Assembly (NCBI GenBank): GCA_008704415.1
Contig: VXIS01000280.1
Span: 1 to 64,000, forward strand
Source of the DNA: Sphaerosporella brunnea
Taxonomy: Eukaryota > Ascomycota > Pezizomycetes > Pezizales > Pyronemataceae
Length of the DNA stretch: 64,000 nt
Direction: 5' to 3'
The notes beneath the pieces are model-generated. The model saw nothing but the letters and a program-made list of their open reading frames with translations. It had not been told where the DNA came from and searched no databases. This document shows, in pieces, positions 10,160 to 46,911 of the stretch (positions are counted from its first letter, which is position 1; the number at the start of each line of letters is the position of its first letter). A program made the position numbers and the translations under genes.

Positions 10160-11779
10160 TCAGTCCAACTCCGGGTCATGCAAATCATTAAAACAGTTGC
10201 GCTGGCTATTGAGACAGAGTGGGACCTGGCAGTCTTTACAGCACCAGCGAGTTTGAGGGAGTTCTTTGGATTTACCCTCGCCCCTGTGTTTCCAGCGGCA
10301 CAAGTAGCAGGTCTTCTTATTCTGGACATGGGTAGGCATATGGGCGCTTTCCGAACAGCGTCCTGCTGGTAATTCTGTGTTCTGTTTGACTGTAGGGCGA
10401 GGGACCGTGGTAGGAGGGGGGACTCGAGGTGGGGGTCCAGCAGTGATGAGACCCCAAGCCACATCCAGCCGGAACTGTTTGTGACTAATCTCTGGGGTTG
10501 TTTCCATGCTGGAGAAGATGAGGTAGGCGTTGATGACCATTGTGTCCATGCCATAGAAGAACATGGGCCACCAGGTGCGCCAGGCAGTCAGCTGCATATC
10601 GTAGTAGCTGCGCAGCTGGTCGGCGATGTCAACACCACCCATATGGTGATTGTAGTCATCAATACAGGTAGGCATTGGCATCTCTTTTGTTTGTTCTTCT
10701 CCAAAGGCCTCGCGGGCGTTCTTTGCGTTGGTACTTTTCTTGCCGGGACGTTTACGCTCGCGGTTCGTAGTGCAGTCCAGCTCGTGGGCGGTGGTCAAAA
10801 TCGTTACTGGTGCATTGTCGATCCACCTCAACGCACCAACCTCCTGTTGCAACGTAGGGTCCTTGACTACTCTGGCTTCTGTGGAGTGGTAATCATACTT
10901 AGATACATCTTGCTTGGCAATGGTAAGGTCTTTGGGGAATGCGGCAGAGCTAGGACGAGCGGTACCGCAAGCAGCAATTTTCAGATCACGTCGTAGCCTG
11001 CCAAGCAAAGGAACAGTGGTGTAAAAGTTGTCAAGGTACACAACCCAGTGACGAGACTTTGGGAGTTGGTTAAGGAGGTGGAAAACAACTTCTCCGGTTG
11101 CTGTTAGACCTTCAACGTGGGGTACAGGGTCGGGGCCGGCCTGGTTGGACGTCGGGAGAAAGTCATACACATAGCCATGGTCCGCAAGGCAATGAAACTT
11201 AAAACCATGCTCAATAGGCTTTGAAGGCATCTTGTATGTGTCCTGCGAGCGGCCCGTGCAGCGGATCATTGCTTCGTCAACAGATATGTTGGTAGAAGGC
11301 AGCCGGTAGGCCTGTGAACTTGACCGCAGCTGGTCGCGCAGAGGGTCCACTTTCGCATGCCACAGCCGGCGCCCTGTAGCAGTCTGTGTATCCCCATCAG
11401 GGCCAGAGACGTGGAAAAAGCGCTTTATCTGCTCGAAGCGTGTTTGTGACATATAGTTGGTGAAGGGGTGGGTTGGGTTGAGGCCATCGTGTTTCCAATA
11501 ATCCGCAATCGCTGGTGAGCGGTGCACCCCCATATACAAAACAATCTCTATCCATGCCCCAATTTCATTTGGCATTACCTCTACCCACTCCCTAATCCCA
11601 GTTTGGCCTTTCTCTTTATTCTTCTGCTCTGCATAGGCGTTGGTATTTACGGACATTGTGTCGAGTAGGGAATTTGTTAAAAAAAGGCGGAAGATTTGGA
11701 TCGGCTCCACGGCATCTAAACCACGTATCGATGATGGAAGAAGGTTAAAAGCTTCATGAGGTGGGGCTCGAGGAGTCAT
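10160..11779 (-). CDS. piggyBac-like transposase (DDE_Tnp_1_7 type)
   Basis: This is the likely transposase that cuts and rejoins the element ends. The frame is open from a TGA at 12053 to the stop at 10160. The first in-frame ATG is at 11779, giving 539 residues; upstream codons are open but have no ATG, so a spliced upstream exon is possible. Numbered from 11779, the catalytic aspartates appear as D168 (in SVDEAM), D250 (in YLDNFY) and the D384/D387 pair (in GGVDIADQ). This matches the spacing pattern of the superfamily. The C-terminus holds a Cys-rich cross-brace motif (CYLC...CCKDC...C...C), as in piggyBac, where it binds DNA ends. No internal stop or frameshift is seen, so the gene may be functional or recently active. 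The superfamily call is strong; activity is inference. Confidence 0.88.
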   Translation of the reverse strand: MTPRAPPHEAFNLLPSSIRGLDAVEPIQIFRLFLTNSLLDTMSVNTNAYAEQKNKEKGQTGIREWVEVMPNEIGAWIEIVLYMGVHRSPAIADYWKHDGLNPTHPFTNYMSQTRFEQIKRFFHVSGPDGDTQTATGRRLWHAKVDPLRDQLRSSSQAYRLPSTNISVDEAMIRCTGRSQDTYKMPSKPIEHGFKFHCLADHGYVYDFLPTSNQAGPDPVPHVEGLTATGEVVFHLLNQLPKSRHWVVYLDNFYTTVPLLGRLRRDLKIAACGTARPSSAAFPKDLTIAKQDVSKYDYHSTEARVVKDPTLQQEVGALRWIDNAPVTILTTAHELDCTTNRERKRPGKKSTNAKNAREAFGEEQTKEMPMPTCIDDYNHHMGGVDIADQLRSYYDMQLTAWRTWWPMFFYGMDTMVINAYLIFSSMETTPEISHKQFRLDVAWGLITAGPPPRVPPPTTVPRPTVKQNTELPAGRCSESAHMPTHVQNKKTCYLCRWKHRGEGKSKELPQTRWCCKDCQVPLCLNSQRNCFNDLHDPELD

Positions 11780-12243
11780 AGGGTGAAAGGTAGGGGTAGC
11801 CGAGGACTCTGGGTGGGTGGACGGGCCAACAAGGGGGTCGGGCGCGGCGGGCGAGTGATTTTTGGTGATGCTTGGCTTTTTCGCTGGCGGCCGAGTAGAT
11901 GTAGAGGATTTCTTCCCAGAGCTCACAGGGGGGGGCGATGAGATGTCCTCATGAGACTCTGAAGAAGGTGGGGATGATAGAGTGGGGGAAGGGAGTCGAG
12001 GTGGCCTGGGACGTAAGCTGTCAATCGGACATTGGGGGCTTGTTGATGCTTTTCACACTCGCACAAAAACTCGCTATTTGTCCTGCAATTGCCAACCATC
12101 ATCTCTCATAACTTCATCATAGACTGTTCATATGCCCTACATCACTTTGTTCTAAGACACCGAGGGGTCACATTTGGGTCCCCATGGAGTTGTGGGGCGC
12201 GGAGTCCGTTGCTACCTGCCAATTGGCCGGAAAACCCAATTTC

Positions 12244-14430: not shown

Positions 14431-15048
14431 TGGTCAACACCTCCTGGCCGACTCCGCCGCTGACAACTGACGCCGTGGACGTCAAATCACCCGATGGCGT
14501 GTACGGCGAGCTACTGGGTGAATCGAACGGGAGCGGCAGAGCCGGCGAAGACGACAGTCCCAATCCAGAACCGCTGGGCAAGCTACGTCGCAGAACTGGC
14601 CGCGACCGAGACCGCGGGCTATTATGCGTTGCGCTGGTCTGCTTTCTAGGAGGTCCCCCAGGTGGCTGTAGCAAGGGTGGCAGCCGGCAGCGTCGAGAGT
14701 TCGTCGGGATTGGACATGAACGCAGCACGCAAGGCTCGATTGACCAGTTGGCGTGCATGGGCGTCTCTGGTGAAGCGATAGGCTGCTCGTGCGGTTCTTT
14801 GAGCACACGACCGTGGAATCGGCTGCCGCTGGTGGTGATCATCTGCAGGCCTTCATATCGCGACGCGCTTGTTGACGTGCGTGTATGCAGTGGCGCGCCA
14901 TGCTGTGCAACTTGTGGCTGCTGGCGGCGGCTGGCGCAAGAGCGCCTAATGCGTCTATCCTTACAGTTATGCATGTAAGCGCCATGATGGATGCAAGCGC
15001 ATTGCGTCGTGCATAACCGGAGTTGCACGGCGCCAACAACAATAACAA

Positions 15049-15080
<32 letters not shown>

Positions 15081-15421
15081 GCAACAACAACAACCACATC
15101 AACCATGGCGAAGAAAAAAAACAAAAAGACCACCCACAACAACAACAAATCCACGATTGAACCACCCACCGAGACGCAATTTTCATGCGCGCCGCCGCTC
15201 TAAACCCCGAAGAAAACCACCGCCAGTTGTGCTCCACCCCGCGATATCTCTCTTTACGCGTACCTGGCGTCGTTCGACGTCGAGAGCCCTTCAATCGCCA
15301 AGAACGCAGTCCCCGACATCAAGCTGCCGATCGCGCGATGGGAGGGTTTTTGCGCCGCCTGACATGTAGTCACGTTTCCTGGCAGGTGTACTGCGCTGCC
15401 ATCTGCTCGACCCCTGGGAAT
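14431..15421. other. Flank of Copia insertion; no firm gene
   Basis: A 248-codon minus-strand frame ends at 14423 and runs up to the kinase-like pseudogene. It includes a long valine run from the CAA/GTT microsatellite, so I do not count it as a gene, although its last part could be an upstream portion of the pseudogene. Confidence 0.35.
15034..15097 (+). repeat. CAA trinucleotide microsatellite
   Basis: About 60 bp of mostly CAA/AAC triplets with one CAG interruption. A shorter run follows at 15136-15152. Confidence 0.9.
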
Positions 15422-15621
15422 TGTTGGAAAACGAGCTTTCTAGGTGTGACGGGACGAGTGGATAAGGGTCGAGGTGGGACTGAGTGATATCCAGTGAAGC
15501 TGTGAGATGGTGTCTATACGTAGCTAGGCTAGCATGTAAACTAAGCAATATAACCATCGCTTACCCACCATCCATCTATTCTGACTAAGCTCCATCTCTC
15601 TACACGTCCACACTTTCAACA
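15422..15621 (+). repeat. Copia 5' LTR
   Basis: Starts TGTTGGAAAACGAG and ends TTTCAACA; the TG...CA termini are intact. Confidence 0.97.
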
Positions 15622-15633
15622 GGTTATGAGCCC
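15622..15633 (+). other. Primer binding site, complementary to initiator tRNA-Met anticodon arm
   Basis: GGTTATGAGCCC directly follows the 5' LTR. It is the complement of GGGCUCAUAACC, the conserved anticodon stem-loop of initiator tRNA-Met. Drosophila copia and related elements prime from such a half-tRNA fragment instead of from the CCA end. Confidence 0.75.
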
Positions 15634-15689
15634 TGTCGCGCTTTCCTGAAAACGAAATCGCTTCCTCCATCAACACCAAAACCATCAAA

Positions 15690-16616
15690 ATGTCCTCGAA
15701 AACGCAGATGTTTAAGCATCCCAAAGGCATCTTCGACCTCCTCACCACCGAAAACTACGCATCATGGGCGATAAACATGCGACGCATCCTTCGCTCGTCC
15801 GATGCCTGGGATATCGTAACCGGTGACGAAGAAGAACCCGATCAGCCTGCGCCCAACGCATCTGAGCGCGTACGGCAAGCCTTCAAAGACTACAGACACC
15901 GAAAAGAGGATGCAGCTACCTACATCTTCAATGGATGCTGCAAGACCGTGAAAGTCATGATAAGCGGCACCGATGATCCCAAAGAGATGTGGGATAAGCT
16001 TGCCAGCAAGCTCAACACGGCCAACTCGGCTCTCGGACGACAGCAACTGCACCAGAAATTCCTAGCAATGAGGCCAAAAGCTGGAGCTCCCATAGCCGAC
16101 TTCTTCACCGAGCTTGAGGAGATCCGAAACCAGATCGCAGGCACCGACGAGGCGATTTCCGACACGACGTTCAAAACGCACATATTCAACTACCTGCCAC
16201 CGGCTTTTGCGATGACAATCAACAATCAGCAGAACCGACCGGAAGCCACTATTGAGAGCATCTGCACCGCCCTTATCGAAGATGAGAGACTGCGATCGAT
16301 GAAGTCCAGCGCAGATGCAGCAGTGGAAGCCCTAAAGGCAAGCACCAAGCCCCCTAGAAGAAAGAAGCGATGCAACCACTGCAAAACAGCAACTCACGAT
16401 ACCGCGGAATGTTGGTACAAAGACGACAAAGATCACCCTAGAAGAAGATCGAAGCGACCTCGTGACGACTCAGACGATGACAAGGTAGTATGCTACTACT
16501 GCTGCGAGACAGGCCATCAGCTCAGCAAATGCCCACTCCGGCAGAAAGCCAGGTCCATACGCAAAAAGGCTTCCGTCAAGAAAGACTCCGACTCCGATGA
16601 AGGAGCAGACCTCTGA
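15690..16616 (+). CDS. gag: Copia Gag
   Basis: This is the structural protein of the virus-like particle, 308 residues, ATG at 15690 to TGA at 16614. The N-terminal two thirds has the UBN2-type Gag fold pattern (an early W in 'NYASWA', helix-rich, a 'MWDKL' segment). Two CX2CX4HX4C zinc knuckles follow, at about residues 228-241 (CNHCKTATHDTAEC) and 268-281 (CYYCCETGHQLSKC). These bind the element RNA. The tail is Lys/Arg and Asp/Ser rich. Two knuckles are more than most Copia Gags carry. Pol follows in the same frame after a single UGA. Confidence 0.93.
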   Translation: MSSKTQMFKHPKGIFDLLTTENYASWAINMRRILRSSDAWDIVTGDEEEPDQPAPNASERVRQAFKDYRHRKEDAATYIFNGCCKTVKVMISGTDDPKEMWDKLASKLNTANSALGRQQLHQKFLAMRPKAGAPIADFFTELEEIRNQIAGTDEAISDTTFKTHIFNYLPPAFAMTINNQQNRPEATIESICTALIEDERLRSMKSSADAAVEALKASTKPPRRKKRCNHCKTATHDTAECWYKDDKDHPRRRSKRPRDDSDDDKVVCYYCCETGHQLSKCPLRQKARSIRKKASVKKDSDSDEGADL

Positions 16617-16668
16617 CGGTTACGGACCTCCGCTCTAACGGCATCAACCTCACTTGGTGCGGAGGTCC
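16614..16668 (+). promoter_or_regulatory. Stop-codon readthrough cassette between gag and pol
   Basis: The gag stop is UGA followed directly by CGG. Seven bases after the stop begins a perfect 10-bp stem, GGACCTCCGC (16624-16633) with GCGGAGGTCC (16659-16668), closing a 25-nt loop. Pol is in the same frame. UGA-CGG plus a nearby 3' stem-loop is the known arrangement for programmed readthrough in tobraviruses and some other RNA viruses. The role here is inferred. Confidence 0.8.
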
Positions 16669-19600
16669 TACTAGCCACAAGACCCATACTGTCTACCACT
16701 ACCTGGATCATCGATTCAGGAGCATCTGAGCATATGTGTAACGATATCAACTGCTTTCTTCAAAAAACCTTAGCAGCGACAAACTACAAGGTCAAACTCG
16801 GCGACGAATCTGAGTTATCGGCATCTTACGTCGGAACCGCATACATCGACGGAATACCCCTACACCACGTACTACTAGTGCCTGAATTTCGTCTATCTTT
16901 AGTCTCAGTTTCACGACTGGACAAAGAAGGTTACAAATCCGTATTTAGTGATGGAAAAGCCACAATCACCGATGAGAGAAATCGGACTCTGTTTGCAGCT
17001 ACCGAAGAGCGTGGCCTCTACAGAATCTATTCGAAGAAGCATGATGCTTTGGTGACTACTCGATCAGGGAAGAAGACACTTCCACCACGAGATCGAAAGC
17101 ACTGCATACGACCTCCAGATGAGGATATATCTCCACAGGAGACATTGATGGGCTTGATACCATCCGAAGATCCTACTAGGGTGATGCGCTTGATAGCATC
17201 TGAAAACCCTAGTAAGGTGACGTCTGAAAAGACATTGATGGGCTTGATACCATCCGAAGATCCTACTAGGGTGATGCGCTTGATAGCATCTGAAGACCCT
17301 AGTAAGGAAACGTCCGAAGAGACACTGATGCGCTTGACAGCACCCAGAAAACCTGCTAAGGTAACATCTCCACACGAGATAGATAAAGATCTACTAGGAT
17401 CTGAAGAAGCCGCAAGCAGCGTATCCACGCAAAACGCCGCAATATGGCATAGGAGACTAGCTCACCTTAACCACGCATCTATGAAGAAGCTACTCGGATC
17501 TCAGATCCCAAGCCTGAATTGCGATATATGCATCATAGCTAAACAAACTCAGAAGTTTGATAGAATGCAGCAAAAGAGAGCGACGAAGCCATACGAATTC
17601 ATCCACTCAGACCTATGTGGACCCCTTAAAACAAGCATCGGAGGAGCATCATACTACATCGTGTATATTGACGATCTCACCAGATATACTGAAGTCTGTT
17701 TCCTGGTCACGAAAAACGCCCCCGAAATCATCTCGAAGTTTAAGGGCTTTCAAGCAGCGATCCAGAACAAGGGCTACTCCATTCAACGCTTTCGCTGCGA
17801 CAATGGGGGTGGTGAATACAACAACACCGAATTCCAGAAGGTTCTGACAGACTCGGGAATCCGCTACGAACCTGCTCCTGCCTACACGCAGCATAAGAAT
17901 GGCGTAGCCGAGAGGATGATCCGGACTATCAATACCAAGGCTCGCTGCATGCTACTGGATGCTAAGCTCCCTATGCGATTCTGGGCTGAAGCCGTAAGGA
18001 CAGCAGTCTATCTCCACCGGCGGACCCCAACTGCAGCCTGTAGCCACATGACACCATACGAAATGCTATTTGGTGAGAAATCTCCACTACAGCATCTTCG
18101 GCGTTTTGGCTGTATTGCCTACAAATTCGTCCCGAAAGAGCAACGCAAGGACAAGAAGTTTGGTATACGATCGCGACCCTGCATGATGCTAGGATACGTC
18201 CACGACACCACTAAGATCTGGCGTATATGGGACTTCAACCGTGGCTTACACGGTGGAGCTGTCGAATGCTCGAATGTCGTCTTCAGAGAAGATCAAAACG
18301 GCTACAGTACCCCAGAAAACGACGATGATGACGTCAATTTTCCTACTGATGACGATGACGTAAGCGAATCTGATGATAACGCTGTCACTCACTCCCGTCA
18401 AGCAGCAAATGCCATCATAGTCGAAAAGGCCAATCGAGGGGGGAGTGACGAAGTTGATCCGATTAGCCTTCGCTATGAGCCAGATCCCACCTCTCTCAAA
18501 GAAGCTATGACGAGCATCCACAAAGCCTCCTGGATCGACGCAATGAAAGAAGAGTGGAAGTCGCTGCTAGACAACCACACCTTTGAATTCGAAGCAACTC
18601 CGAAAGCCATCGAAATCGCAACTCCGAAAGCCATCGGAAGCAGATGGGTGTTTAGGACAAAACTCAACCCAGATGGGACTACGAAATTCAAAGCCAGACT
18701 AGTCATCAAGGGATACGAGCAAGTCAAAGGCATCGACTTCAACGAAACCTACGCTCCTGTCTCGAAGCTCTCAACCCTTCGCATGCTATTGGCCATAAGC
18801 GCCCAGAAAGGCTGGAAAATCGACCACATGGACGTTAAATCAGCTTTCCTTAACCCTGAGATCGATAACGACAACGTCTACATGAGCTTACCGCAGGGTA
18901 TAGAAGAAGTTGATCCCTCGCTATCAAGCTCTACCGTACGACTGAGAAAAGCTCTTTACGGCCTTAAGCAAGCTCCGAAGCTCTGGTATGACAACATCAA
19001 CCAGTTCCTGCTATCTCTCGAGTTTACTCAATCCACTGCGGATCCGAATCTCTACATCACAGATAAGGCTCTACTGCTACTCTACGTCGACGACATCCTC
19101 ATCATCCATACCAAGCAGCATGGCAGTAGAGGAGACGAAATCAAGCGACAACTCAATGAGCGATACAAGATGACAGACCTGGGTCAAGTGCAGAGGTTCC
19201 TAGGCCTAGAGATTGGACGAAGCTCAGCTGGCATAACTCTTAGCCAATCGACGTATATACACTCCATCATCCGAAGATTCGATCTTGAAAACGCCAAAGA
19301 AACCGCTTCACCGATGGATGCAAACGTCGATCTTGACAACCCCCTATGCAACGACAAGCAGGTGTCAGATACGACTCTATACCAGTCTATGGTCGGATCT
19401 CTCATGTATGCGGCACTAGGCACTAGGCCAGATATTGCATTCTGCGTCACAGTCTTGAGCAAATACAACGCCAACCCTCTACAGATGCATCTAACAGCTG
19501 CGAAACGAGCTCTACGATACCTCAAGAAGACATCGAAATACGGACTACACTTCCCTAGCATCGAGCAGCATAATACCAGCATAGTAGGCTTCACTGACTC

Positions 19601-20072
19601 AGACTGGGCTGGGAGCACTGGAAGCAGAAAGTCGATCGGCGGATACGTCTTTCAGATGAATGAGGGATCCATATCTTGGCAAGCGAAGTCACAGACAGTT
19701 GTCGCCCTATCGACGTTAGAAGCTGAATATATCGCCTGCTCGGACGCAACTCGAGAAGCCATCTGGCTTCGACGCCTGCAAGCCGAAATCGATCGACTCG
19801 GAGATCCCACGAAATCGACGCCGACACCTATAAGCTGCGACAACCAGGGAGCCTTGAAGCTTATAGCCACTGGAGTTCTGAAAGCAAAGACAAAGCACAT
19901 AGACATCAAGTTCCACCATGCTAGAGACGAGCAAGAGAAGGGGCACGTCAAGTTCGACTACATAGCATCTGAAGACAACATAGCAGACCTGCTAACGAAA
20001 GGCCTTCCGACTCCTCGACACCAAATGCTGACTAGCAAGCTTGGACTTTACGAAGTGGAGGACACTACCTAG
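16617..20072 (+). CDS. pol: Copia Pol (protease, integrase, RT, RNase H)
   Basis: The frame is open from the codon after the gag UGA to TAG at 20070. The first in-frame ATG (16734) lies downstream of the protease active site WIIDSGAS (Asp at 16713), so Pol needs readthrough of gag to be complete. Domains in order: aspartic protease; integrase zinc site (WHRRLAHLNH...CDIC, about 17440-17545); integrase core with Asp 17610, Asp 17799 and Glu 17910; reverse transcriptase with YVDD at 19083; and RNase H with TDSDWAG (about 19594), LEAEY and CDNQG. All catalytic residues are present. A 90-bp in-frame repeat lies between protease and integrase. This 3.4-kb frame is fully open. Confidence 0.96.
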   Translation, partial: RLRTSALTASTSLGAEVLLATRPILSTTTWIIDSGASEHMCNDINCFLQKTLAATNYKVKLGDESELSASYVGTAYIDGIPLHHVLLVPEFRLSLVSVSRLDKEGYKSVFSDGKATITDERNRTLFAATEERGLYRIYSKKHDALVTTRSGKKTLPPRDRKHCIRPPDEDISPQETLMGLIPSEDPTRVMRLIASENPSKVTSEKTLMGLIPSEDPTRVMRLIASEDPSKETSEETLMRLTAPRKPAKVTSPHEIDKDLLGSEEAASSVSTQNAAIWHRRLAHLNHASMKKLLGSQIPSLNCDICIIAKQTQKFDRMQQKRATKPYEFIHSDLCGPLKTSIGGASYYIVYIDDLTRYTEVCFLVTKNAPEIISKFKGFQAAIQNKGYSIQRFRCDNGGGEYNNTEFQKVLTDSGIRYEPAPAYTQHKNGVAERMIRTINTKARCMLLDAKLPMRFWAEAVRTAVYLHRRTPTAACSHMTPYEMLFGEKSPLQHLRRFGCIAYKFVPKEQRKDKKFGIRSRPCMMLGYVHDTTKIWRIWDFNRGLHGGAVECSNVVFREDQNGYSTPENDDDDVNFPTDDDDVSESDDNAVTHSRQAANAIIVEKANRGGSDEVDPISLRYEPDPTSLKEAMTSIHKASWIDAMKEEWKSLLDNHTFEFEATPKAIEIATPKAIGSRWVFRTKLNPDGTTKFKARLVIKGYEQVKGIDFNETYAPVSKLSTLRMLLAISAQKGWKIDHMDVKSAFLNPEIDNDNVYMSLPQGIEEVDPSLSSSTVRLRKALYGLKQAPKLWYDNINQFLLSLEFTQSTADPNLYITDKALLLLYVDDILIIHTKQHGSRGDEIKRQLNERYKMTDLGQVQRFLGLEIGRSSAGITLSQSTYIHSIIRRFDLENAKETASPMDANVDLDNPLCNDKQVSDTTLYQSMVGSLMYAALGTRPDIAFCVTVLSKYNANPLQMHLTAAKRALRYLKKTSKYGLHFPSIEQHNTSIVGFTDSDWAGSTGSRKSIGGYVFQMNEGSISWQAKSQTVVALSTLEAEYIACSDATREAIWLRRLQAEIDRLGDPTKSTPTPISCDNQGALKLIATGVLKAKTKHIDIKFHHARDEQEKGHVKFDYIASEDNIADLLTKGLPTPRHQMLTSKLGLYEVEDTT
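17141..17400 (+). repeat. 90-bp in-frame tandem repeat inside Copia pol
   Basis: Copies start at 17141, 17231 and 17321, each with GACATTGATG or GACACTGATG. The first two are nearly identical and the third has diverged. Each encodes 30 residues of a hydrophilic linker between protease and integrase. Confidence 0.9.
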
Positions 20073-20085
20073 AAAGAGGGGGGAG
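20073..20085 (+). other. Copia polypurine tract
   Basis: AAAGAGGGGGGAG lies between the pol stop and the 3' LTR. It primes plus-strand synthesis. Confidence 0.9.
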
Positions 20086-20285
20086 TGTTGGAAAACGAGC
20101 TTTCTAGGTGTGACGGGACGAGTGGATAAGGGTCGAGCTGGGACTGAGTGATATCCAGTGAAGCTGTGAGATGGTGTCTATACGTAGCTAGGCTAGCATG
20201 TAAACTAAGCAATATAACCATCGCTTACCCACCATCCATCTATTCTGACTAAGCTCCATCTCTCTACACGTCCACACTTTCAACA
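20086..20285 (+). repeat. Copia 3' LTR
   Basis: Same length and termini as 15422-15621, with one visible difference. Preceded directly by the polypurine tract. Confidence 0.97.
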
Positions 20286-20290
20286 GGAAT

Positions 20291-22017
20291 TGTTAGTGAT
20301 GCTTCCATCGACACCAACTTCAAAGGAGACTCTCACCCGATGAACACACGTTCTGCTTCAGCAGACGTCGCTGGAATCGCATTGACCTCAACTCCCATGC
20401 GCCGCAGATCTTGTCCGGACATCCCATCTACCTGGGAGCTTGCCAACCTGGCGCGCTTTTTCTGCGGCCGGCACAATGACCGACCCGACCTTAATTCAGG
20501 ATATCGGGCACCGGCTGGCGCCTATCAGGTGTCCAGGTTTTTCTTATGCCGGCCCGAACCTGGCGGGACGCCACATCACCGGCCCGACCTGAGCCACTCC
20601 TTGGAGCCCCGTTTGACCTGGCGGCCGGCCGGACTATTGACCACCCTGTGCTCGACATACAATCCCGTCACTCCCGCAGCGCACTCCCGCAGCGCGCGCT
20701 CGCGAGCTGCGGGAGTTATCGGTAGACAGGTCACGTACGACTTTGCAGTAACAGCGCATAGCAATCTGGCCAACATGTTCACATCAACTACTCAACACAC
20801 ACACCCGTCTTCTACGCAGGAATAACCGCCTCGACCCAGTGCCCATACCCCTCGTTGAACCATACCCCGCCAAGGTCCAGCTGTGGGCTTGCGTCAGCGT
20901 GGAACTTCACATAGCCGGGATTCCTACCTCGTTGATGCTGGCATCCCTCGTAAGCGCGTTGCCTTGTACGTCGTTAAACCCAATGCTCTCAGCGGCAACC
21001 CCGAGCTTCTCAGCGACTGCCTCCGCTACGTAGCTCAACCGCCGGTCCGACCAGACGCGAAACTGTAGCGGGCTCTCTGGTTTGCCTGGCGTCAGTGTAG
21101 CCCTGGGTGTGCGCGGGGAGGGGCCACTTACGGTGTCCGGGTATCGACACCACCATCAGGAGCTGTTGCAGGACCGTAGGCGAGCTGGGTGGGCTTGGGA
21201 GGTCGGTTAACATGGTGGCTGCGGTTGTGGAGTGATGCTGTGTGGGGCTGGAAAAATGCTGGCTGAAATAGATACTAATCTCCGCGCAACTCGAAGCGTG
21301 TCCTCGACGGAATGCTCTGCTGGATCGAGTTGTTCATGGGTGGCAGGATGGTTGGCGACGTCTCAAGATGCACGCATATTGTTGACAGGGCCACCCAATT
21401 TCGCAAAACACTGATCTTCTCCAAGCACCGCCGGTTGGTCTGGGATCCATGCCTGCATAGCGAGCCTGGCGGTTTGGAGGCGCCGCAATGTGAGGCGAAA
21501 ACACGCGAACACATCCAAGCCTTGTGAGCCTGCGTGGACATAGGGGACACAAACCGTGGCCGTGATACCCGTGCCACACAAAGACTGCCCGATACATTAT
21601 TGACCCAAGGGCCCAATTTTTGACGCCCGATTCGCTCAATCCCCCATCTGTGTCCTGCCACCTGCATTGGATGCGACCTCAGTCGCGGCCAACGGGAGTA
21701 GGAGCGGTGTGGGAGCAGACGATCTACACGAAGTGGCGCCGCGGAATCAGGACATGCAGACGCCGCGCGGGTGAATATTTCCCGTGGCTATGACGGGCAC
21801 ATGAAGGTACATCGCATCAATTGATATTATTCACGAAATTGGTGGACGGCAATCAACAGTCAGCCAGATTGTTTTGCGAATGGGCCGTCTGGCAACTCAG
21901 AGGAGGGAACGTTATTTCTCCATGAGGCAAATGCAGTCTGCTGCGTTCGATCGGGTCGCCATCTGTTTGGAGGTTTCAGTCGAGATCTTGGTAGAATGGC
22001 TGGTCCCGGGGCCCGTG
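20291..22017. other. No gene recognised; diverged dispersed repeat inside
   Basis: 20450-20640 shares boxes such as GGCACAATGACC, 'TTCAG(A/G)ATA(T/C)CG' and 'CCGGCCGGACTATTGACCA' with the palindrome arm at 1965-2060. The remainder has only short, motif-free frames. Confidence 0.45.
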
Positions 22018-22025
22018 TGTGCGAC

Positions 22026-23645
22026 CAGTGTTTCACACGAATCGAGAATTCTCGCCGAGGGTCTCGGTCTCGCGAGAATGGTGCGGTCTCGAAATATCCC
22101 GCCGGTCTCGTGGCAGTCTCGTCGGTTCTCGTTCGGTCTCGTCATTCTTGCGAGTGCTCGGTTGTCTCCCCAACATTCAGGCTGCTATGGTGCCACTGTT
22201 GTTTGGAGAGGCATAGCTCGAGTCGTGAAGTGTCTGCAGGGCGCGGGATACTGGAGCAATGAAAGCCCTATGGTACACGGTTTGTATGGAGGATGGATTT
22301 TTGATACATGAGCGTGTATAGATGCTGGACCCTGTGTATAACGGGACCCCACCAGCCCAGGGTCGCCACACCGAAGGTTTTACGTCCTCATTTAAACGTG
22401 TTCTTTTTGGGGCTCCCATCAATGCCTGGATGGCCAACTGGACTATAGGTTGCCTACATTCAGACCTTTCAAGTTACGCCAGATGGAAGGCTTGTTTATA
22501 TTGTTCGAGAATGTGGAATGCAGATGGTCCTGCTGAAAAATATAAAAAGGCTGATGGGGCTGTTTGTTTGGTGTATTTGCTTAACAGTTGCACTTCGTTA
22601 CTACTGTAATAGTAGGGTTGTCGTGTGGGGTAGTCCTGCGGTGGTCATATGGCTCCCCGGGATCAACAATTGCTAGATGCTATTACTCTCAATGGAACGA
22701 GCTCAAACTCACAGATATAGGGCATCAAACGACGCCGCATCACCCGCTGTACGCAGATCTATCCCCCCATAGGTGGATGTTGTGTGGCGTAGCCGTCCGC
22801 GGGTGCGGTAGCTCCCCTGGGTCAACAATAGCTGGAAGCTGTTACTCCCAATGGAATGGGCTCAAACTCACAGATATAGGGCATCAAAGGACGCGGCTTT
22901 ACCCGCTGTTCTCAGATTTATCCCCCCATAGATGGTTGTTGTGTGGGGTGGACCCGCGGAGGTCCTGTGGCTTGTCCGGTTCAAAAATAGCTGGAAGCTG
23001 TTACTGTCAATGGAATCACTTCAAACTCACAAATATGGGGCATTAGAGAACGCTTTTTTCACTCTGTACTCAGATCTATACCCCCATAGCTGCCCGTCTT
23101 GTGGGGTAGTCCCGCCGGAGTCCAGTTCTGTTATTCGACCCAGCGTAAGTCATCTCGCGATACTCTGGTTGTATGGATGCTGACGCCGCGGTTTAGCTTC
23201 CACAGCGCCGGCAGAACGGATTTTCTCCGCTGCAGGGAACGCTCACGAACGCCATCAAGCTCGGATGGCCCCCGAGACTCTGCAGACCCTCATCACGTTG
23301 CGGGCATGGTGGAAACAGGGCGCTCTGGGGTTTGACTCGGTCGTTGCCGGTGCATAGTGATTCGGTGGAGGATGACCAATGAAATGTTCCATTTCAAGTG
23401 GCTGGTACACAAATTTATTGTTATGTTCCTCGCCCATCTAGGTGCACCAGCACGCATGACCAGTTCGCCCAGTTTACGATGCAGACTGGAAGCTCTCCCG
23501 CTCGGGAGAGATTCTCGCCAGATATCGCCTGGTCTCGTGAGGCCGCCGTCATTCTAGGTCAGTCTCGGCCATCTTGAGTGGTCTCGACAGTTGTCGACGT
23601 CTCGATCATTCTCAGTCTCGTCTCGCGGTCTCGTGTGAATGACTG
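22026..23645. mobile_element. Non-autonomous hAT-like element
   Basis: The ends are CAGTGTTTCACACGA (22026-22040) and, inverted, CAGTCATTCACACGA (23631-23645), matching at 13 of 15 positions. Flanking 8-mers TGTGCGAC (22018-22025) and GGTGCGAC (23646-23653) match at 7 of 8 positions, as an 8-bp hAT target duplication would. Both subterminal zones (22036-22160 and 23500-23640) are packed with TCTCG/GGTCTCG boxes, likely transposase-binding repeats. No transposase remnant is present. The interior carries 159-bp tandem repeats. Confidence 0.72.
22625..23150 (+). repeat. 159-bp tandem repeats inside the hAT-like element
   Basis: Equivalent points fall at 22625, 22784, 22943 and 23101, giving three full units and a partial one. 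This is the same family as the palindrome centre (2229-2545 and 2648-2964). Confidence 0.88.
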
Positions 23646-27140: not shown

Positions 27141-30100
27141 TCATCCCTTTTCATCCTTCCAATCATCTGCCTCGAAAATCGTGATATCCACCGCTCTGTC
27201 TTCTATCTCCATTACCCATGCTTGCCTTTTCTGTCGTTTGCGGCGGGGCCGTGTTTTTGCCTTCTCGGCTGCCAGTACAGGCTGCAACTCCCCATCCGCA
27301 GCCTGAAATTCCTGCAGTATCTCCGTTCCACCGCCAGTGAACATCTCTGCTGGCTCCCAAGTCAACTCCTCATCGTTTTCCCATTTTACCTCGTACTCAA
27401 TCCGTCCACCCTCATCCGGGTTTCGGCGCCATGAGCGAATTTCCTCAACTCCATACTCTCCCTCAGGCTGTGCCTTTGCATGACCTCGTGTGATGCGCAG
27501 TGCAAGAGCTGGTGCCTGCGGTCGTGAGTGATCAATGGTCGAGGGCTTGAGTGAAGCCACATTGTGAGTGCGTGCTATCTTTCAGTTCTTGAACAATAGA
27601 ACTTCGAATGCATTTTGACCGTGCTGCTTTCCAAGCTCAAACTCTCCGATATACTTCTGGTGTAGTACTTTACGGTGGTTATCGGTGTCGGTGGCATACG
27701 TGATTGGTAGGTTCTTTGCGGACAACAAAACTTTATCTCCTTGCTGAAAGGTATGTGGTTGTCGATGCTTATTGGCTTCTGCTACTTGCTGTTCCTGCGC
27801 ATGCTGAAGATTTTGTCGTAGCCGACTAAGCGTGTTCACCATTTCTGCTGCAAATGTACGGCCATCTGCCGGCAAATTCACCTGTCCGGGCCGACTCCTC
27901 AGACCTTCTCTACGGCTCCGTTCTTTTCCAACACTTGCAAGAGCATCAAGTGGCATGCGAGGGATGTAAGCGAGATCAGCTTCAAATGGAGACATTTCGA
28001 TCGACTTCTGCCGGGTTGCATTGTATGCGAATTCTGCAAGAGCGAGCAGTTGATCCCATTCATCCTGGCGTTCGCCTGCATATGACCTGAGATATCGCTC
28101 AACAATCGAGTTTGCCTTTTCAGCCTGCCCATCAGTCTGAGGGTGAAATGCTGTTGACATACGGAGCTTGGTATCGAATTCACTCATCAGGGTCTCCCAG
28201 AATGTTGATGTGAATCGTATGTCGCGATCGGAGACAATCGCATCCGGGAGTCCATGGTATCGCACGTAGTGGTCACGGAAAATCTCAGCAAACTTTACAG
28301 CGGTCAGGTCCTTCTCCGTGGTCGCAATCAGGTGTGCACGCTTTGTCAAAGCATCGATAATAGTGATGATTGTGTCATTTCCATCCTTCGTCACCGGTAA
28401 CTTTGTAATAAAATCCATATTAATTCTCCGCCATCTCTCGTCCGGGATATCCAAGGGCTGTAGGAGTCCGTACGGCTTCTGATTTGATGACTTGGTGCGT
28501 GCACATGTTGCACAGCCTTGCACATAGCGCTTCACTTCCTGATACATTCGCAGCCAAAAGAACCTTCGTGCAATTGTTTCGTACGTTCTGCTCAGCCCAA
28601 AGTGGCCTCCAACTGCCGCGTCATGTGCCTCTCGAAGAATGCGATACTTGATATCTTTTATCTGCGGGATGACCAGACAGCCAGTATAGTTGTGAATGAT
28701 CATACCATCGTCCAAATGGTAGTGTCGTCCACGAGAGTGCTGCCGGCGAAGGTCTGCCTTGTGCTGTCGCTCCTCTCCTGGTGACCGTTTGCCAATTGGG
28801 TTCGGTTCTGGTTGCAAATGATACAACACATCGCGGCAGTAGGGATCCTCCAAATATCCACGACGGATGCTCTCGAACCATTCCTTGCCATCTTCAATAG
28901 CCAGTTCAAATAGCTCCTCATTTGCCAATGACCTGCTCGCAGATGTCAAGCGTGGCAGTGGTGGCTCCTTGTAATCGGGACGTCTACTCAGGGCATCCTG
29001 CACCCAGTTCTTTGCTCCCGGTAAGTATTCAACATCAAAATCATACTCCATCATATCCTCGAGGGCACGCATTTGACGTTGACTGAGCTTTGGTTGCTGT
29101 AGCATGTGGCGTAAGCTGGCGTGATCAGTTGATATGGTTGTGTGGCGGCCCAGTAAGTAGTATCGCCAATGCTTCAGAGCGTCACGGATTGCAAGAAGTT
29201 CCTTGTCGTATGTGGAATAACGTTGTTCCGCACCGTGAAGTTTGCGTGAGAAATAGGCCAGTACCTTCTCCTCAAAGCTTTGGCCGTTATCATCCGTTTG
29301 CTATATCTGTCGCAGCGTGGCACCAATGCCAAAATCTGAAGCATCTGTTCGAACAAGGAATTCACTGTTTCCAGCCTCCGGCAGTGACAGACAGGGTTCT
29401 TACGTGAGTACTTCCTTGAGATCCGCCATAGCCTGCTCCAGCCTCGTCCAATTCTCAGTGTTGGCCACATGTGCACGGAATTCATGCTTGCTGATATTGA
29501 GGACCTCGAAGAACAGTAAGGCCTTTATGGCAAACTTGGGTACGAATTTGCGGTATGCTCCTGCAAGACCCAGAAAGATCCGAGCGTCCTTGGGTGACTG
29601 AATCATTGGCCAGCTGGCAATTGACTTGATCTTGTCTTCCGTTAGACGGATACCCTTGCCATCAATGTCGAAGCCAACAAAGTCGGTTTCTTGATGACCA
29701 AACGCACATTTCTTGTCCTTCAGGCGGAACCCATTCTTTCGCAGCGTATCCAGAACCGCTTTTACATGCCACTCATGTTCTTCCATTGTTGCCGAGAATA
29801 TCAGGATATCGTCAATAAAAACCACACAGTACGCTTTGTGAGGTGCAAGCAGCTCAGTGACCATTCGCATAAACCAGGCTGGTGCCGTGGCTATACCTTG
29901 TGGTATGACAAGCCATTCCCACAGACCGTCTGGGCCGACAAATGCAGTCTTTTCAATATCTTCTGGAGCGACACGATTCTGCGAGTATCCGCTCCAAAAG
30001 TCCATTTTTGAAAAGAACTTCTTGCCCTGAAGTTTATCGATGAGTTCCTCTGGTAGTGGTAGCGGAAATCGATCCTTAATGGTAATTGCATTGAGTGCTC

Positions 30101-36491: not shown

Positions 36492-39400
36492 TCATTCATC
36501 TTCCGGCAGAGACCCCGGCTTGTCTGGACAGGCCTTCTGGAAGCAATCGATAGCATTCAGACCATTGACTATCTCGGCTGGTTTCCAGTTCGGCCGATCG
36601 TAGCCGGTCCACTTGACCAAATACTGGAGCTTACGCCAGCGTCCATGCAGTCGGGAGTCCAAAATCCGACTCACGTAGCACTCCTGCTCACCCTCAATCT
36701 CTACCAGAGGTGGTGGGTCCTGTCGTTGTCCGATATAAGGATCATTGGGTGCCGGTTCCGAGAGGGAGACGTGGAAGACTGAGTGGACATGCATATCCTT
36801 ATGGAGCCGGAGGCGGTAGGCGTACGCCGAGATCTTCTCGGTAAGCTCAAACGGACCGTGACGCTTATTGTCCAGCTTACTGGCTGGAGGCCGAGTCTTC
36901 CAATTCCGCGCATGAAGCCAGACCTTGTCTCTGACCTGATAATAAGGAGCCGGTAAGTGGTGCTCGTCGGCGTTGTCCTGATGTCTCATCTGCGCCCGTA
37001 GGAGCTCGGTGCGGAGGTGCGAATGTATTTCCAACAACGTCCTCGTGGTGATCAAGGCTCTGCGATCGTCAACATTGTTTGGGGCCGCAGGGGACAAGTC
37101 AAACTGGTAACGAGGGTCGAACCCATTGTTAACAAAGAAGAGAGAGGAGACGTGAGCCTCTGATGCCTGGTTGTTGGTTGCGAATTCGGCCAACGGCAGC
37201 CAATCAGCCCAGTCATCCTGGAGATAGTTGACATATGCTTGGAGGCACTGCTCCATTACCGCATTGATGCGTTCCGTTTGTCCATCCGTTTGGTGGTGGA
37301 AGGCTCTTGAGAGCCGATGCTCTATACCCAGTCTGACAAAGATGCGTTTCCAGAATGCCGATGCGAACTGCGGTCCACGGTCGGAGATAATGGTAAGCGG
37401 TAGGACGTGGAGACGGAATACGTATTGGACGAAGAGATCAGCCAGTCCAGCCGCATCGACATTGGTCTGGCAAGGAATCAGGTGACGTTCCTTTGTAAGG
37501 CGGTCGACCACAACCCAAATAGCATCGCAGCCTTGTGACCACGGGAGCCCAGTGACGAAATCCATTGAGATGTCCTGCCAAGGACGTTCCGGGATAGGGA
37601 GGGGTGGTAAGATGCCGTAAGGAGCATGATGACCGGTCCGAGAGCGTTGGCAGACATGGCAGTTGCGGACATACTCTTCCACGTCCTGCCGCATCTTTGG
37701 CCAATGGTAGGTGCGACAAAGCAGCTCCAAGGTTTTGGATCTTCCTGGGTGGCCAGCAACGGGGGTATCGTGGTGTTGTTGCATCAAATGCAGCCGGAGC
37801 GGCTTGTATTCGGGCAAGTAAAGCTTATTTCTATAGGTGAGATGATCTCCTTCTTAGGCGCATTCTGCCAACGTGATCCGGCGGCTATGGCGGACTCCGT
37901 CTCGCAACATCCGAAGGACCCGAAATGGAAACGGGTCCGCATCGTAAACTCCTTGGAACAGGCGGGCAAGTGTCATCGCTTCGTTTCCTAGAGGTGGTGG
38001 AGGCTGCGCTGGCGGGCCGTCGGCCAGGAGGTGGACGATCTGGGGGGCTTTATGTCGATGGAAAAATTTTCAGTCGTCCGCTCATCCCCCTCCTTAGGCA
38101 GATCTCCTGATCTGCGAGTTAGTAAGTCCGGGTTCCCACCAGACTTTCCAGGACGGTAGACGATCTTGAAGTTGAACTGCGACAGAAACTGAGACCAACG
38201 GGCTTGACGCCGATTCAGGAACTTGATGGGGGTAAAATACTCCAAGTTCTTGTGATCAGTGAGCTCCTGGATTGAATTCTCCACGGATTGGAGTTCCGGC
38301 CGCCATTCCTCAAAAGCCCGGACAATAGCCATCAACTCCTTCTCGTGGATGTCGTAGTTGCATTCTGCAGGGCAATGCTTCTTAGAGAAGTACGCAACAG
38401 GGTGGAGGACGCCGTCGTCGTATTGTAATAGGATGCCAGCAGCGACGTAGTCGGAGGTGTCCGTCTCAACGACGACTTCACGGTCGTGGTCAAGGCGGCA
38501 GAGAACTGGAGCAGTGGTGAAGCACGTTTTCAGGCTGTAAAAGGCTTCCTGTTCAGTCATGGTCCATTGGAATGCCACGTCCTTCTGGGTCAGGCGGGTG
38601 AGTAGCCGCACCACCTGAGAGTAGGAGCATATGAATCGGCGGTAGAAGTTGGCGAATCCAAGGAAGGCTCAAACATCCTTTAGCTTTATCGGAGTTGGCC
38701 AAGCTTTCACTGCTTCGACCTTGTCCGGGTCCATCCGTATGCGTTTGACACCGCAGATCAGTCCGAGATACTTGACCTCACGTCGGTGAAACTCGCATGT
38801 CTCTGGCTTCAGGTGCAGGCCTGCTTCCGAAAGCCAACGAAGGACCTGTCGGATGTCGTCCTGGTGCTCTTCAAAGGTGTCTGAGTAGGTAAGGATGTTG
38901 TCCAGGTAGGCAGAGGCGAAACAGTCCAGGAACGGTGAGAGGGTATCGTTGATAAAAGGTTGAAAGTCAGCTGGAGCGTTGGTAAGACCGAATGGCATCA
39001 CCAGGGATTCGAATAGTCCATAACGGGTTCCAAATGCCATTGTCCACTCCTCACCCTCTGCCATTCGGATTAGGTTGTAAGCTCCGCGGACGTCCAAGTT
39101 GCTAAACCAGCGAGCTTTGTAAACCCTCATCAGTGTTTCTTGTACTAACGGGAGCGGATACCTATTTTTGATTGTTCCTTCGTGAGTCCCCGGTAGTCAA
39201 CCACCAGGCGTAACGATCCATCCCCCTTCTTGGCGAAGAGGATCGGGGCACCGCCGGGTGAGGATGAGGCCCTGATAAACCCTTCCGACAGGTTTTCCTC
39301 CAACCAGGCCTTGAGGGCTTCCAGCTCAGGGCGAGACAGCGAGTATAGGGGGCCAAAGGGGAGTTCAAACCCCTCCTTGAACAGTATCTTGTGGTCGTAG

Positions 39401-43191: not shown

Positions 43192-46100
43192 TCAGCTGTC
43201 ATCTGGGAGTGGTCCGGGCTTGTGTGGGTACAATTTGTGGAAGCGGTCGATAGCTTCAAGGCCATTGTTTCCTTCCGCCGCCTCCCATTCCGGTGGGTCA
43301 TAGCCGGTCCACTTTACCAGATATTAGAGGCGTCCCCTTACCAAGCGCGAATCCAGAATGGCATCGACGGACCATTCTTTTTCGCCATCGACATCAACAG
43401 GGAGAGGGGGTGGAATGATCTGTCCAGGGAGGGGGTCGGAAGATGCCGGGTTTAGGAGCGAGACCGGAAAGGTGCGATGGTTCTTCATGGTGTTGGGAAT
43501 GTCCAATTCATAGGCATGGGTACCGACGGCTTGAACCACTCGGTAAGGGCCCAGGTGCTTGTTTTCGAGTTTCCTAGATGATCGTTCCGTGGGCATGTTC
43601 CTAGAGTCCAGCCAGACGAGGTCGTTCTCTTTGAACTCAGGGGCGGGGGCTCGGGACCGATCGGCGGCTTCAGTATATCTGACTTGGGCGTACTTCATCT
43701 CGGCTCGTAGAACGTCGTGGATGTGTGACATCCGCTCGGCCACCAGCTGCGCGTCGACCTGTTCGGGGTTGTTGGTCCGAATGTCTAGCTCAAAAGAGCA
43801 CTTAGGGTTGCGGTCATAAACGGCGAAGAAAGGAGACAGTGACGTAGTCTCGGAAGCCTGGTTATTGGCTGCGAATTCGGCCAGGCGGAGATACTTCTTC
43901 CAATCGTTCTGCAGGTATGATACGTAGGCGCGGAGATACTGCTCCGTGACGGCATTGATCGGTTCTGTCTGACCATTGGTCTGCGGGTGGAAGGCGGTGC
44001 TTGGAGCAGTCTCAATCCCAAGACAGGAAGCAAGGTGTTTCCAGAAGTTAGCAACGACTTGGGGGCCTCGGTCGGAGATGAGAACGTCGGGGAGGCCATG
44101 GTGCTTGAAGACGTTTTCAATAAATAGCTGAGTAAATCCTTTTGCGTCGATGGTTGTAAGACAGGGAATTAGGTGGCGTTGTTTTCTTAGTCGGCAGACT
44201 ACTGCACAGATTGCGTTGTAGCCTTCCGAGACAGGAAGTTCAGTGAGGAAATCAACGCAGACACTTTGCCAAGGATACTGAGGGACAGGAAGAGGCTTCA
44301 GAGTCCCGAACGGTGCGTGTCTTGTTGCTTTCGTCCGTCGGCAGGTATGACAATTGCGTACGAATCTCTCTACGTCATGTCGCATACTTGTCCATTAGTA
44401 GCGTCGGGATAGGAGTTCCAAGGTCTTTGCACGTCCCGGGTGTCCCGTGGTCGGAGGGTCGTGGTGGTCTTGAATGAGTCGGAGCCGAAGGGGGGCGTAA
44501 TCTGGGACGTAGCAGCATCCGCAATACATTAGCCTCCGTTGGTGCTCAGAGCAGTCGGCAAGTGAAATGTCTTTGGAGATTCGGGTGCCTTTTGCCAGCA
44601 TCTCTAGGACTCGTTGCGGGAAAGGATCCGCTTCGTACCCTTTGTCAAACAGGGTTTCCAGGCAGGACGGCCCGATGCTGGGTGGGTTTTTCGTCATCAA
44701 ACGTAGATTGTCGGCCGAGTTCTGCGGTTTCAGGACTGCCTGTTGGTTGGCCAAAAGTCGTTCATCCCCCTCTTTAGGGAGGTCTCCAGACCTCCTAGTG
44801 AGGGTGTCGGGTTTCCCACCAGCGACACCGGGTCGATAGACTACCTTGAAGTTAAAGAGAGACAGAAATTCGGACCAGCAGGCCTGGCGACGGTTGAGCA
44901 GTTTCGTTGTCATGAAATATTCCAGGTTCTTGTGATCGGTGAGAACCTTGACGGGGAACGCAGAGCCTTCAAGGTGGTGACACCATTCCTCGAAGCATCG
45001 AACAATAGCCATCAACTCCTTCTCGTAGATCTCATAGTTGCATTCGTCAGGGGAGTGTTTCTTGGAAAAGCAGGCGACGGGGTGGATGGTTCCCTCATCG
45101 TCATACTGGGAGAGGACACCGGCTGAGACGTAGTCTGATGCATCGGTTTTGACAACAACTTCACAAGCATAGTCGAAGTGTCAGAGAATCGGGGCGGTTG
45201 TAAAAGCCTTTTCGATGGTAGCGAACGCGTTTTGCTGCGCGGTACCCCACACAAAGGGCACGGGTTGGCCATTGTCTTTCTTGGTCCGCGAGGTGAGTGG
45301 GGCAACCACCTTTGAATAGTCGCGAATGAACCGGCGATAGAAGTTCGCAAACCCTAAGAATTCCTGAACGTCCTTGAGGTTGGATGGTGGTTCCCATTCC
45401 ATCATTGTTTGGACTTTGCTGGGGTCCATCTTGATGCCGTTGCGTCCGACCAGTAAGCCCAGGTACTTGACCTCCATCTGATACAACTTGCATTTCGCCG
45501 GCTTGAGGTGGAGCCCAGGTTTGCTGAGAGCATCGAGGATCTGCTTGATATGCTCGCGGTGTTCTTCGATGGTCTCTGACTAGATCAAGATGTCGTCGAG
45601 GTAGGCCGTACAAAAGCGGTCGAGGAACGGTGGAAGTACATCGTTGATGAAGGCTTGGAAGTCGGCAGGGGCATTTGTGAGTCCGAAAGGCATGACCAGG
45701 GATTCGAAAAGCCCGTAGCGGGTTCTGAAGGCGGTCTTCCATTCTTCCCCTTCAGCCATGCAGACCAGGTTGTAGGCTCCTCGGATGTCCAACGTCGTGA
45801 AGTATTTTGCCTTGGAGAGCTGCCTTGGTGTCTCCTGGATCAGAGGTAACGGGTACCTGTTCTTGATAGTTCCTTTGTTCAGGCCTTGGTAGTCAACACA
45901 CAGCCGTAGAGACCCGTCTGCTTTCTTGACGAACAGGATGGGCGACGCGGCTGGCGAGGATGAGCGGCGAATAAATCCCTTTTCCAAGTTTTCTTCGAGC
46001 CAGGCCTTGAGGGCTTCCAGCTCCTCTCGGGAGAGGGAATACAAAGGGCCAAATGGGGGAACGAAGCCCTCTCGCAAAGGAATCTTATGGTCATATGGTG

Positions 46101-46910
46101 GATGCGGCCGTAGTCTATTTGCAATTGCCTCCTTGAACAAAGGGAGATAGCCGTGGAATTCGGCGGGGACAATTTTGCGTAGGTCGTTGTTGTCTTCGGC
46201 GTACTTCTGTTCAAGGGCGCTATTAATTTCGTACAGGGATATAGAATAGACGGCTAGGTGCTTTTTCTTGGCCAATCTGCAGAAGGAGGAGGCTTTTAGT
46301 GAGGCGATGTGTAGTTTTGCTGGCGCTGCTGTGATGGGTTCCCGAAAGACCTCTGGGGGTTCTTCGCTAAGGGCTGAGACGGTTGTTGGTACGGGGTTGC
46401 AGTGAGCCAGGCAGTATTGTGATCCGAAGGTGAGAGACCGAGAGCTGAATCGGATCGCGACGTGGTGGACCTGGAGCCAGGGGTTTCCAAGTACAATGAG
46501 GTAGTGTCCTAATTTGGTGTCAAACATGGGGACTTGTTCTTGGTCATCTTGGATGGTACATTGGGCGACGGACAGATGAGTGATGTCACCGGAAGAGATT
46601 GGACGGCCGTCGATTACTTCGAGGGTACGGGGTTTTCTTAAGGAGCGTAAGGGGAGTTGGTGATGGCGAGCAAAGTCTTCGTCCACAAAGGATATGCTAG
46701 TTGCGCCACAATTGATCAGCGCATGAGTACGAACAGTTTTATTGCTGAATGACAGAGTGCAAGAAACAATAAGGTGCTTTCCTTCCAGTGCTGTTTTCTC
46801 CACAACTGTGTCCGTAACTCCAAGAGCTGTCAATCCTAAGCTAGACGAAGACAACGAGATGGGGTGACCAGCAGCATAGCCATCAATGTGCGGCTGGTCT
46901 AGACGTTTCC
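43192..46910 (-). pseudogene. pol: Gypsy-3 pol
   Basis: One frame from the slippery site to TGA 43192, broken by TAG 45580, TGA 45181, TAA 44395 and TAA 43324. The protease active site reads NCGATS where DCGAT is expected, a G-to-A change that kills it. RT retains YLDD (about 45590), immediately before a stop. RNase H has '[16 protein letters not shown]' (about 45150). Integrase has HHCC and core with Asp in 'CVDFLTEL' and Asp in 'ISDRGPQV'; the usual Glu motif reads 'GQTEPINAV'. The chromodomain ('LVKWTGYDPPEWEAAE', about 43280) follows a stop where Gypsy-2 has Gln, i.e. CAA to TAA. Confidence 0.9.
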
Positions 46911-46911
46911 C
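46858..46911 (-). promoter_or_regulatory. Canonical -1 frameshift signal, Gypsy-3 gag/pol
   Basis: In element sense the heptamer G-GGA-AAC (46911-46905) is in the gag frame, followed by a 5-nt spacer. Stem 1 then pairs GACCAGC (46899-46893) with GCTGGTC (46872-46866), 7 bp, around a 20-nt loop. Loop bases GATGG (46884-46880) can pair with CCATC (46862-46858) just past the stem, forming an H-type pseudoknot. A -1 shift at the heptamer leads into the open pol frame. GGGAAAC is a known slippery site in retroviruses. Confidence 0.85.

Follow-up and report, generated by a model that had tools for sequence, protein, structure and literature searches.

At positions 15422-20285, the window (the whole stretch of 64,000 nucleotides that was analysed) contains a complete, young Ty1/copia LTR retrotransposon of Sphaerosporella brunnea, designated C202 where it has to be told apart from its relatives. 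Its features, all on the forward strand, are as follows.

15422..15621, +, 5′ LTR (TGTTGG...CAACA), preceded by the target-site duplication (TSD) GGAAT at 15417-15421
15622..15641, +, primer-binding site (PBS), adjoining the 5′ LTR
15690..16616, +, gag ORF (Retrotran_gag_2, two zinc knuckles), coding 15690-16613, then TGA
16614..16616, +, UGA stop, putative readthrough site (TGA in 33 of 40 lineage junctions)
16617..16623, +, CGG and the remainder of the 7-nt spacer (CGGTTAC; CGG in 31 of 33 TGA copies)
16624..16668, +, stem-loop with arms 16624-16633 and 16659-16668 (10 bp) and a loop of 25 nt
16617..20072, +, pol ORF: protease (DSG), Pol_BBD, gag_pre-integrs, integrase (rve), SH3, RVT_2
20086..20285, +, 3′ LTR, with the purine tract GAGGGGGGAG just before it and the TSD GGAAT at 20286-20290

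The LTRs are 200 bp long and differ from each other at a single position, in agreement with the near-identity noted in the original prediction, and the same TSD is found on both sides. Ty1/copia hallmarks are present throughout: LTRs with TG...CA ends, a short TSD (5 bp in five of five copies), a PBS, a purine tract, and the domain order protease-integrase-RT in pol. The latter encodes 1151 aa (coding 16617-20069, stop TAG) in the frame of gag, with Pfam matches to Pol_BBD (residues 30-106), gag_pre-integrs (265-310), rve (323-423; 29.9 bits, slightly below the cut-off of 32.6), and RVT_2 (670-900). The sole PDB match for pol residues 1-528 was an integrase (7z0h_W), which we take to be that of Ty1. 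Between protease and integrase, pol carries an in-frame 90-bp tandem repeat (17140-17337), and related families are of unequal length at this place. PBS-like sites were found at 18 places when up to 2 mismatches were allowed, and the core GGGCTCATAACC was retained in 17 of them; at most three bases beside this core differ among families. The complement of the PBS is presumably similar to the initiator tRNA-Met anticodon arm, which suggests priming by a half-tRNA of the kind used by Drosophila copia; a gene for the initiator tRNA-Met primer itself was not found.

Gag and pol share one frame, interrupted by a single TGA at 16614-16616 that is followed by CGG, exactly as had been predicted. The further claim that the first ATG of pol lies beyond the active site of the protease also held, with this ATG at 16734 (codon 40) and the DSG at codon 33.

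Conservation of UGA-CGG in sibling copies

Sibling copies were sought within one assembly, namely that of the window itself, which spans 50.6 Mb in 640 contigs, is marked as fungal by 66 Fungal_trans matches, and was queried with the junction DNA, the start of pol, gag, RVT_2, Retrotran_gag_2, and two sequence patterns. Forty junctions with a readable stop position were obtained (29 in the main set, plus 6, 1, and 2 further ones, plus 2), two of which (C307b and C578b) are known solely as pattern matches. Excluded from this number were copies with the junction deleted or not found (C223, C2, C252, C544, C624, C603, C234, C306, and C44), gag matches stopping short of the junction (C324 and C383), other gag matches with the junction unfetched (e.g., C118, C17, C128, and C175), and the remaining pattern matches with 3 mismatches; backward control patterns gave 4 and 28 matches. 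Near-identical copies are not independent, and about four clades can be distinguished (window type, C456 type, C172 type, and C43/C534 type).

This comparison, which had been proposed together with the original prediction, bore out the stop and its context. TGA occupied the stop position in 33 of the 40 junctions; in all 33 the next base was C, and in 31 the next codon was CGG, the other two being CAG (C336) and CCG (C456). One TGA copy, C124, has a TAG immediately upstream of its TGA. The codon behind the stop is CGG in almost every copy, throughout clades with saturated synonymous sites (gag pS of 0.744 for C202/C172 and 0.791 for C202/C456), although CGG accounts for 9 of the 92 Arg codons in gag and pol of the window element and for 9-17% of those in four other stretches. 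In the seven junctions that lack TGA, its position is taken by TAA (C37), TGC (C299a), CGA (C281, C281b, and C307b), AGA (C307), or TCA (C623). Every one of these copies is damaged elsewhere too: C37, C281, C281b, C307, and C623 have stops in gag, protease, or RT, C307b has a partial gag match containing a stop, and in C299a the frame is disrupted after the protease and RVT_2 gives no match. Many of the TGA copies have lesions, too; therefore, those in the non-TGA copies show only that an intact copy without TGA was not encountered. At ∼18390-19860 of C299 (L037), TGC-CAG replaces TGA-CGG with the stem intact, so that gag into protease forms one frame of 514 codons; this copy is a natural loss of the stop.

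The lineage is active now, or was so until recently. Five insertions of the window family, each flanked by a TSD of its own and with LTRs differing at 0-1 of 200 positions, all carry TGA-CGG. Pairwise, they differ at 2-23 bases in 2,484 of pol. The 201-bp junction (16560-16760) is identical in four of the five; C113 has a single change 5′ of the stop, and C313 a 3-nt deletion slightly farther upstream than this junction. Counting from the stop, seven lineage copies have an open pol of 1,094 codons or more (1151 codons in the five copies of the window family, 1142 in C67, and 1094 in C534), each of them with TGA-CGG. As the gag match of C534 spans one extra TGA, only its pol is claimed to be open.

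In principle, the UGA could be an ordinary nonsense mutation in a decaying element, for example, a CGA codon for Arg changed C to T by deamination or RIP. The three copies with CGA, from which TGA would arise by just such a C-to-T change, are compatible with this explanation, as are the other stops in many lineage copies, those with TGA included. However, it does not account for a TGA common to deep clades and to five young insertions with open pol, for its presence in 7 of 7 copies with a pol of at least 1094 codons, or for the other lesions in 7 of 7 copies lacking it. Decay was rejected on the grounds that the stop is common to deep clades and young insertions, which makes this explanation extremely improbable and upholds the original assertion that random decay is unlikely to account for the UGA.

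Both frames show the footprint of selection. Between C202 and C67, dN was 0.100 and dS 0.504 for gag, and 0.120 and 0.568 for pol (730 aligned codons), thus a dN/dS of ∼0.2 for both, which indicates purifying selection on two frames with the stop between them. Between the same two copies, synonymous divergence drops to 0.23 at pol codons 1-20; it is 0.63-0.71 over the five full bins at the end of gag and 0.74 in the pol bin that follows. Because bins of low synonymous divergence are found in other parts of both genes as well, this dip is supportive only. Within the first ∼140 codons of gag (15690-16110), synonymous divergence of C202 from C67 is 0-0.23, versus 0.4-0.7 further on, which may reflect recombination between families or a constraint at the RNA level such as packaging.

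When a tree of 28 copies was built from the flanks with the signal itself excluded (25 of the 29 junctions of the main set and three of the six further ones), TGA was found on both sides of the midpoint root and the three non-TGA rows represented three separate changes at tips; the tree has long branches meeting (tool warning), which makes its rooting unsure. The best reading is that the readthrough type composed of UGA-CGG and a stem-loop is ancestral to this copia lineage.

The stem-loop downstream of the stop

Three prime of the stop, the window element has CGGTTAC (7 nt), GGACCTCCGC (16624-16633), a loop of 25 nt, and GCGGAGGTCC (16659-16668). The perfect 10-bp stem beginning 7 nt after the stop was therefore recovered as predicted. 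The 87 nt from the stop fold with −31.6 kcal/mol (z −4.24), and none of 200 dinucleotide shuffles was as good. Under a null preserving the amino acids, a stem of at least this length near this place was seen in 5.0% of 20,000 draws (MFE z −3.03 against 300 such draws); thus, the protein sequence predisposes to part of the stem. The single-copy case for the stem is weaker than it first appears, and its conservation across copies is the convincing part. A covariance model of the junction found only this junction in the 64-kb window (next matches with E of 3 and 4.8), and Rfam gave one match in 15400-20300, below the cut-off of its family and located elsewhere in pol.

For covariation, 23 of the 29 main-set junctions were aligned with MAFFT, the six others being duplicates of a row or family already included; two C43/C534 rows, which have gaps in the 5′ arm, were set aside by the tool. 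In the 23 rows, 90.5% of the stem cells were paired, compared with 40-51% when one side was slid. Cells changed on both sides numbered 22 (shuffled mean 10.1), and the covariation score was 0.232 (shuffled 0.141), with 0 of 500 shuffles as high in either case. Two of five measures did not exceed the shuffles, namely the counts of doubly changed pairs (3) and of further pair types (9), because the changes amount to a few clade-level events. Changes on both sides at three pairs, G-C to C-G (columns 27-69), A-U to G-C (28-68), and C-G to U-A (33-63), are what the comparison of siblings was expected to reveal for a conserved stem, with the caution that amino acids account for part of it. According to our reading of the alignment, columns 27-69 and 33-63 are third codon positions on both sides.

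The stem is not equally well preserved everywhere. At least eight uninterrupted pairs are formed in 17 of the 23 copies, and four to seven in C100, C75, C124, C123, C159, and C298. Under the synonymous null, P was 0.05 for the window element, 2.8% for C200, 0.5% for C534, between 0.05 and 0.12 for six of seven other near relatives, several of them at 10-12%, and 0.039 for C100, in which the longest stem is 7 bp. In C75, C124, C123, C159, and C298, the stem was no better than chance by this null (P 0.37-0.98); judged by the same null, 18 of 23 copies had an MFE z that did not reach −2. Combining C202, C200, and C534 by Fisher's method gave ∼0.0006 in a hand calculation that treats these hand-picked representatives as independent. 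A consensus fold of all 23 aligned junctions contained no pairs, which we attribute to the two C43/C534 rows aligning badly in the 5′ arm; with 20 rows (without the C43/C534 rows and C222), it contained seven.

The C43/C534 clade, the most divergent of the lineage at 38-41% identity to the window element in gag and protease, has a different sequence after the stop and forms a 9-bp stem (CGGCAGCAT/ATGCTGTCG) at the same 7-nt spacer. Among five copies of this clade, the stem shows no covariation, and three (C123, C159, and C190) break one pair; all three have stops in their pol matches.

These observations bear on whether readthrough might occur by virtue of UGA-CGG alone, with the stem a dispensable by-product of a conserved protein. 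Synonymous-null values between 0.05 and 0.12 for most near relatives would be expected in that case, and UGA-CGG has been kept in C123, C159, C298, C75, and C124 despite their interrupted stems. Neither the covariation at third positions nor the different stem with the same spacing in the C43/C534 clade (P 0.005), however, is readily explained in this way, and the stems of C123, C159, and C298 may be decayed, given that every one of these copies has a stop within its pol match. A dispensable stem is therefore considered unlikely. Whereas the amino acids favor part of the stem, the third-position covariation and the separate C43/C534 stem argue for selection acting on the RNA.

Predicted readthrough and alternative routes to Pol

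Taken as a whole, the arrangement makes it highly probable that the element produces its enzymes via programmed UGA readthrough, the occurrence, rate, and stem dependence of which we infer from sequence; that the stem is essential is proposed with less confidence than readthrough itself. In this model, most ribosomes would stop at the UGA at 16614 and release Gag, and a minority, in which a near-cognate tRNA decodes the UGA, would go on to translate protease, integrase, and RT in frame. Readthrough would be raised by the 3′ context CGG together with a stem starting 7-9 nt downstream, and would set the ratio of Gag to Gag-Pol.

Pol might alternatively be obtained by splicing out the stop, or from an RNA or start of its own (internal or non-AUG), with the stem serving something else. 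Drosophila copia makes Gag through splicing, and weak GT and AG sites do exist near the stop. When GTNNG[TC] sites in 16314-16616 and YAG sites in 16617-16830 (the only ranges scanned) were combined, however, GTATGC at 16488 yielded no intron whose length was divisible by 3, and the introns maintaining the frame begin at GTTGGT (16411), which is a poor fungal splice site, and would delete the second zinc knuckle. An own start has to contend with the first AUG of pol falling after the active site of the protease, and the strict UGA-CGG is predicted by neither route. Splicing, for which the scan offered no good in-frame fungal intron, is thus possible in principle but poorly supported, as are internal starts, and we regard the two as very unlikely.

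Beyond the single element, we lean towards the view that an entire, deeply diverged fungal Ty1/copia lineage inherited a single UGA-CGG readthrough switch, the geometry of which (stop, CGG, 7-9 nt, and a stem of 8-10 bp) has persisted, whereas the stem itself underwent compensatory change in one clade and in another was built anew from different sequence. If so, the UGA-CGG/stem-loop type known from viruses would be an ancestral route to Gag-Pol in fungal retrotransposons, alongside copia families with one ORF in the same genome.

Related signals and other copia families

To our knowledge, control of Gag-Pol by readthrough is rare in Ty1/copia elements. In Tca2 (pCal), a Ty1/copia element of Candida albicans, gag and pol are in frame and separated by a single UGA, which is bypassed with the help of a downstream pseudoknot. 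The window element shares with Tca2 the Ty1/copia order and the single in-frame UGA between gag and pol, but has a simple stem-loop after UGA-CGG instead of a pseudoknot. The latter was rejected because no consistent loop-to-downstream pairing emerged in 10 sequences: in a simple test, the longest such pairing was matched by 102-500 of 500 shuffles, and there was no common position. Thus, the kind is already known, and a simple stem-loop with a CGG kept over a deep lineage looks like a variant.

Alphaviruses, tobraviruses, and Colorado tick fever virus use readthrough signals consisting of UGA-CGG or UGA-C and a 3′ stem-loop. The likeness extends to the UGA, the CGG or C behind it (here CGG in 31 of 33), and a stem a few nucleotides downstream (here at least eight pairs in 17 of 23); in contrast to the viral signals, the one predicted here is located at gag/pol of a fungal LTR retrotransposon, and no homology is claimed. 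SIRE1 of soybean is likewise a Ty1/copia element with stop codon readthrough, which is predicted for the window element, but there it takes place at the junction of pol and an env-like gene, at UAG in a CARYYA-like context, rather than at a UGA-CGG between gag and pol. Murine leukemia virus resembles the window element in having gag and pol in frame, one stop, and a structure about 8 nt downstream, and differs in that its signal is UAG-G with a pseudoknot; this type was not found here, where the stop is UGA-C and is followed by a stem-loop. Relatives were not detected in viral contigs, contigs of prokaryote genomes, or phages, collections described as containing no fungal genomes.

Some other copia families in the same genome encode gag and RT in one open frame (1547 codons in C86, 1476 in C342, 1478 in C612, and 1305 in C9), and no stop was found between the cysteine-rich region and the protease at the junctions of C342, C204, C464, C460, C86, and C616. 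A copia element in C131 does contain a TGA, at a Trp of the protease and not at the junction. One genome consequently offers dozens of natural variants, with intact, weakened, or destroyed stems, stops changed to sense codons, and single-ORF families. With these, the parts of a UGA-CGG signal could be tested in a fungus, as could its reading by fungal versus animal or plant ribosomes. For annotators, the element is a warning that when gag and pol are divided by an in-frame stop, this does not necessarily indicate decay.

The remainder of the window contains further mobile elements and repeats. A CAA repeat array (15034-15103) lies ∼320 bp upstream of the insertion, and an ORF of 630 codons with DDE_Tnp_1_7 (10160-12052, − strand) is presumably of the piggyBac type. 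Retroelement ORFs on the minus strand encode RNase H/integrase (27582-29300), integrase with a weak chromodomain match (36492-37853), and protease/RVT_1 (45580-46983). Long arrays of 178-bp and 159-bp units occupy a stretch of lower GC (58662-63449), and another 159-bp array is present at 22619-23120.
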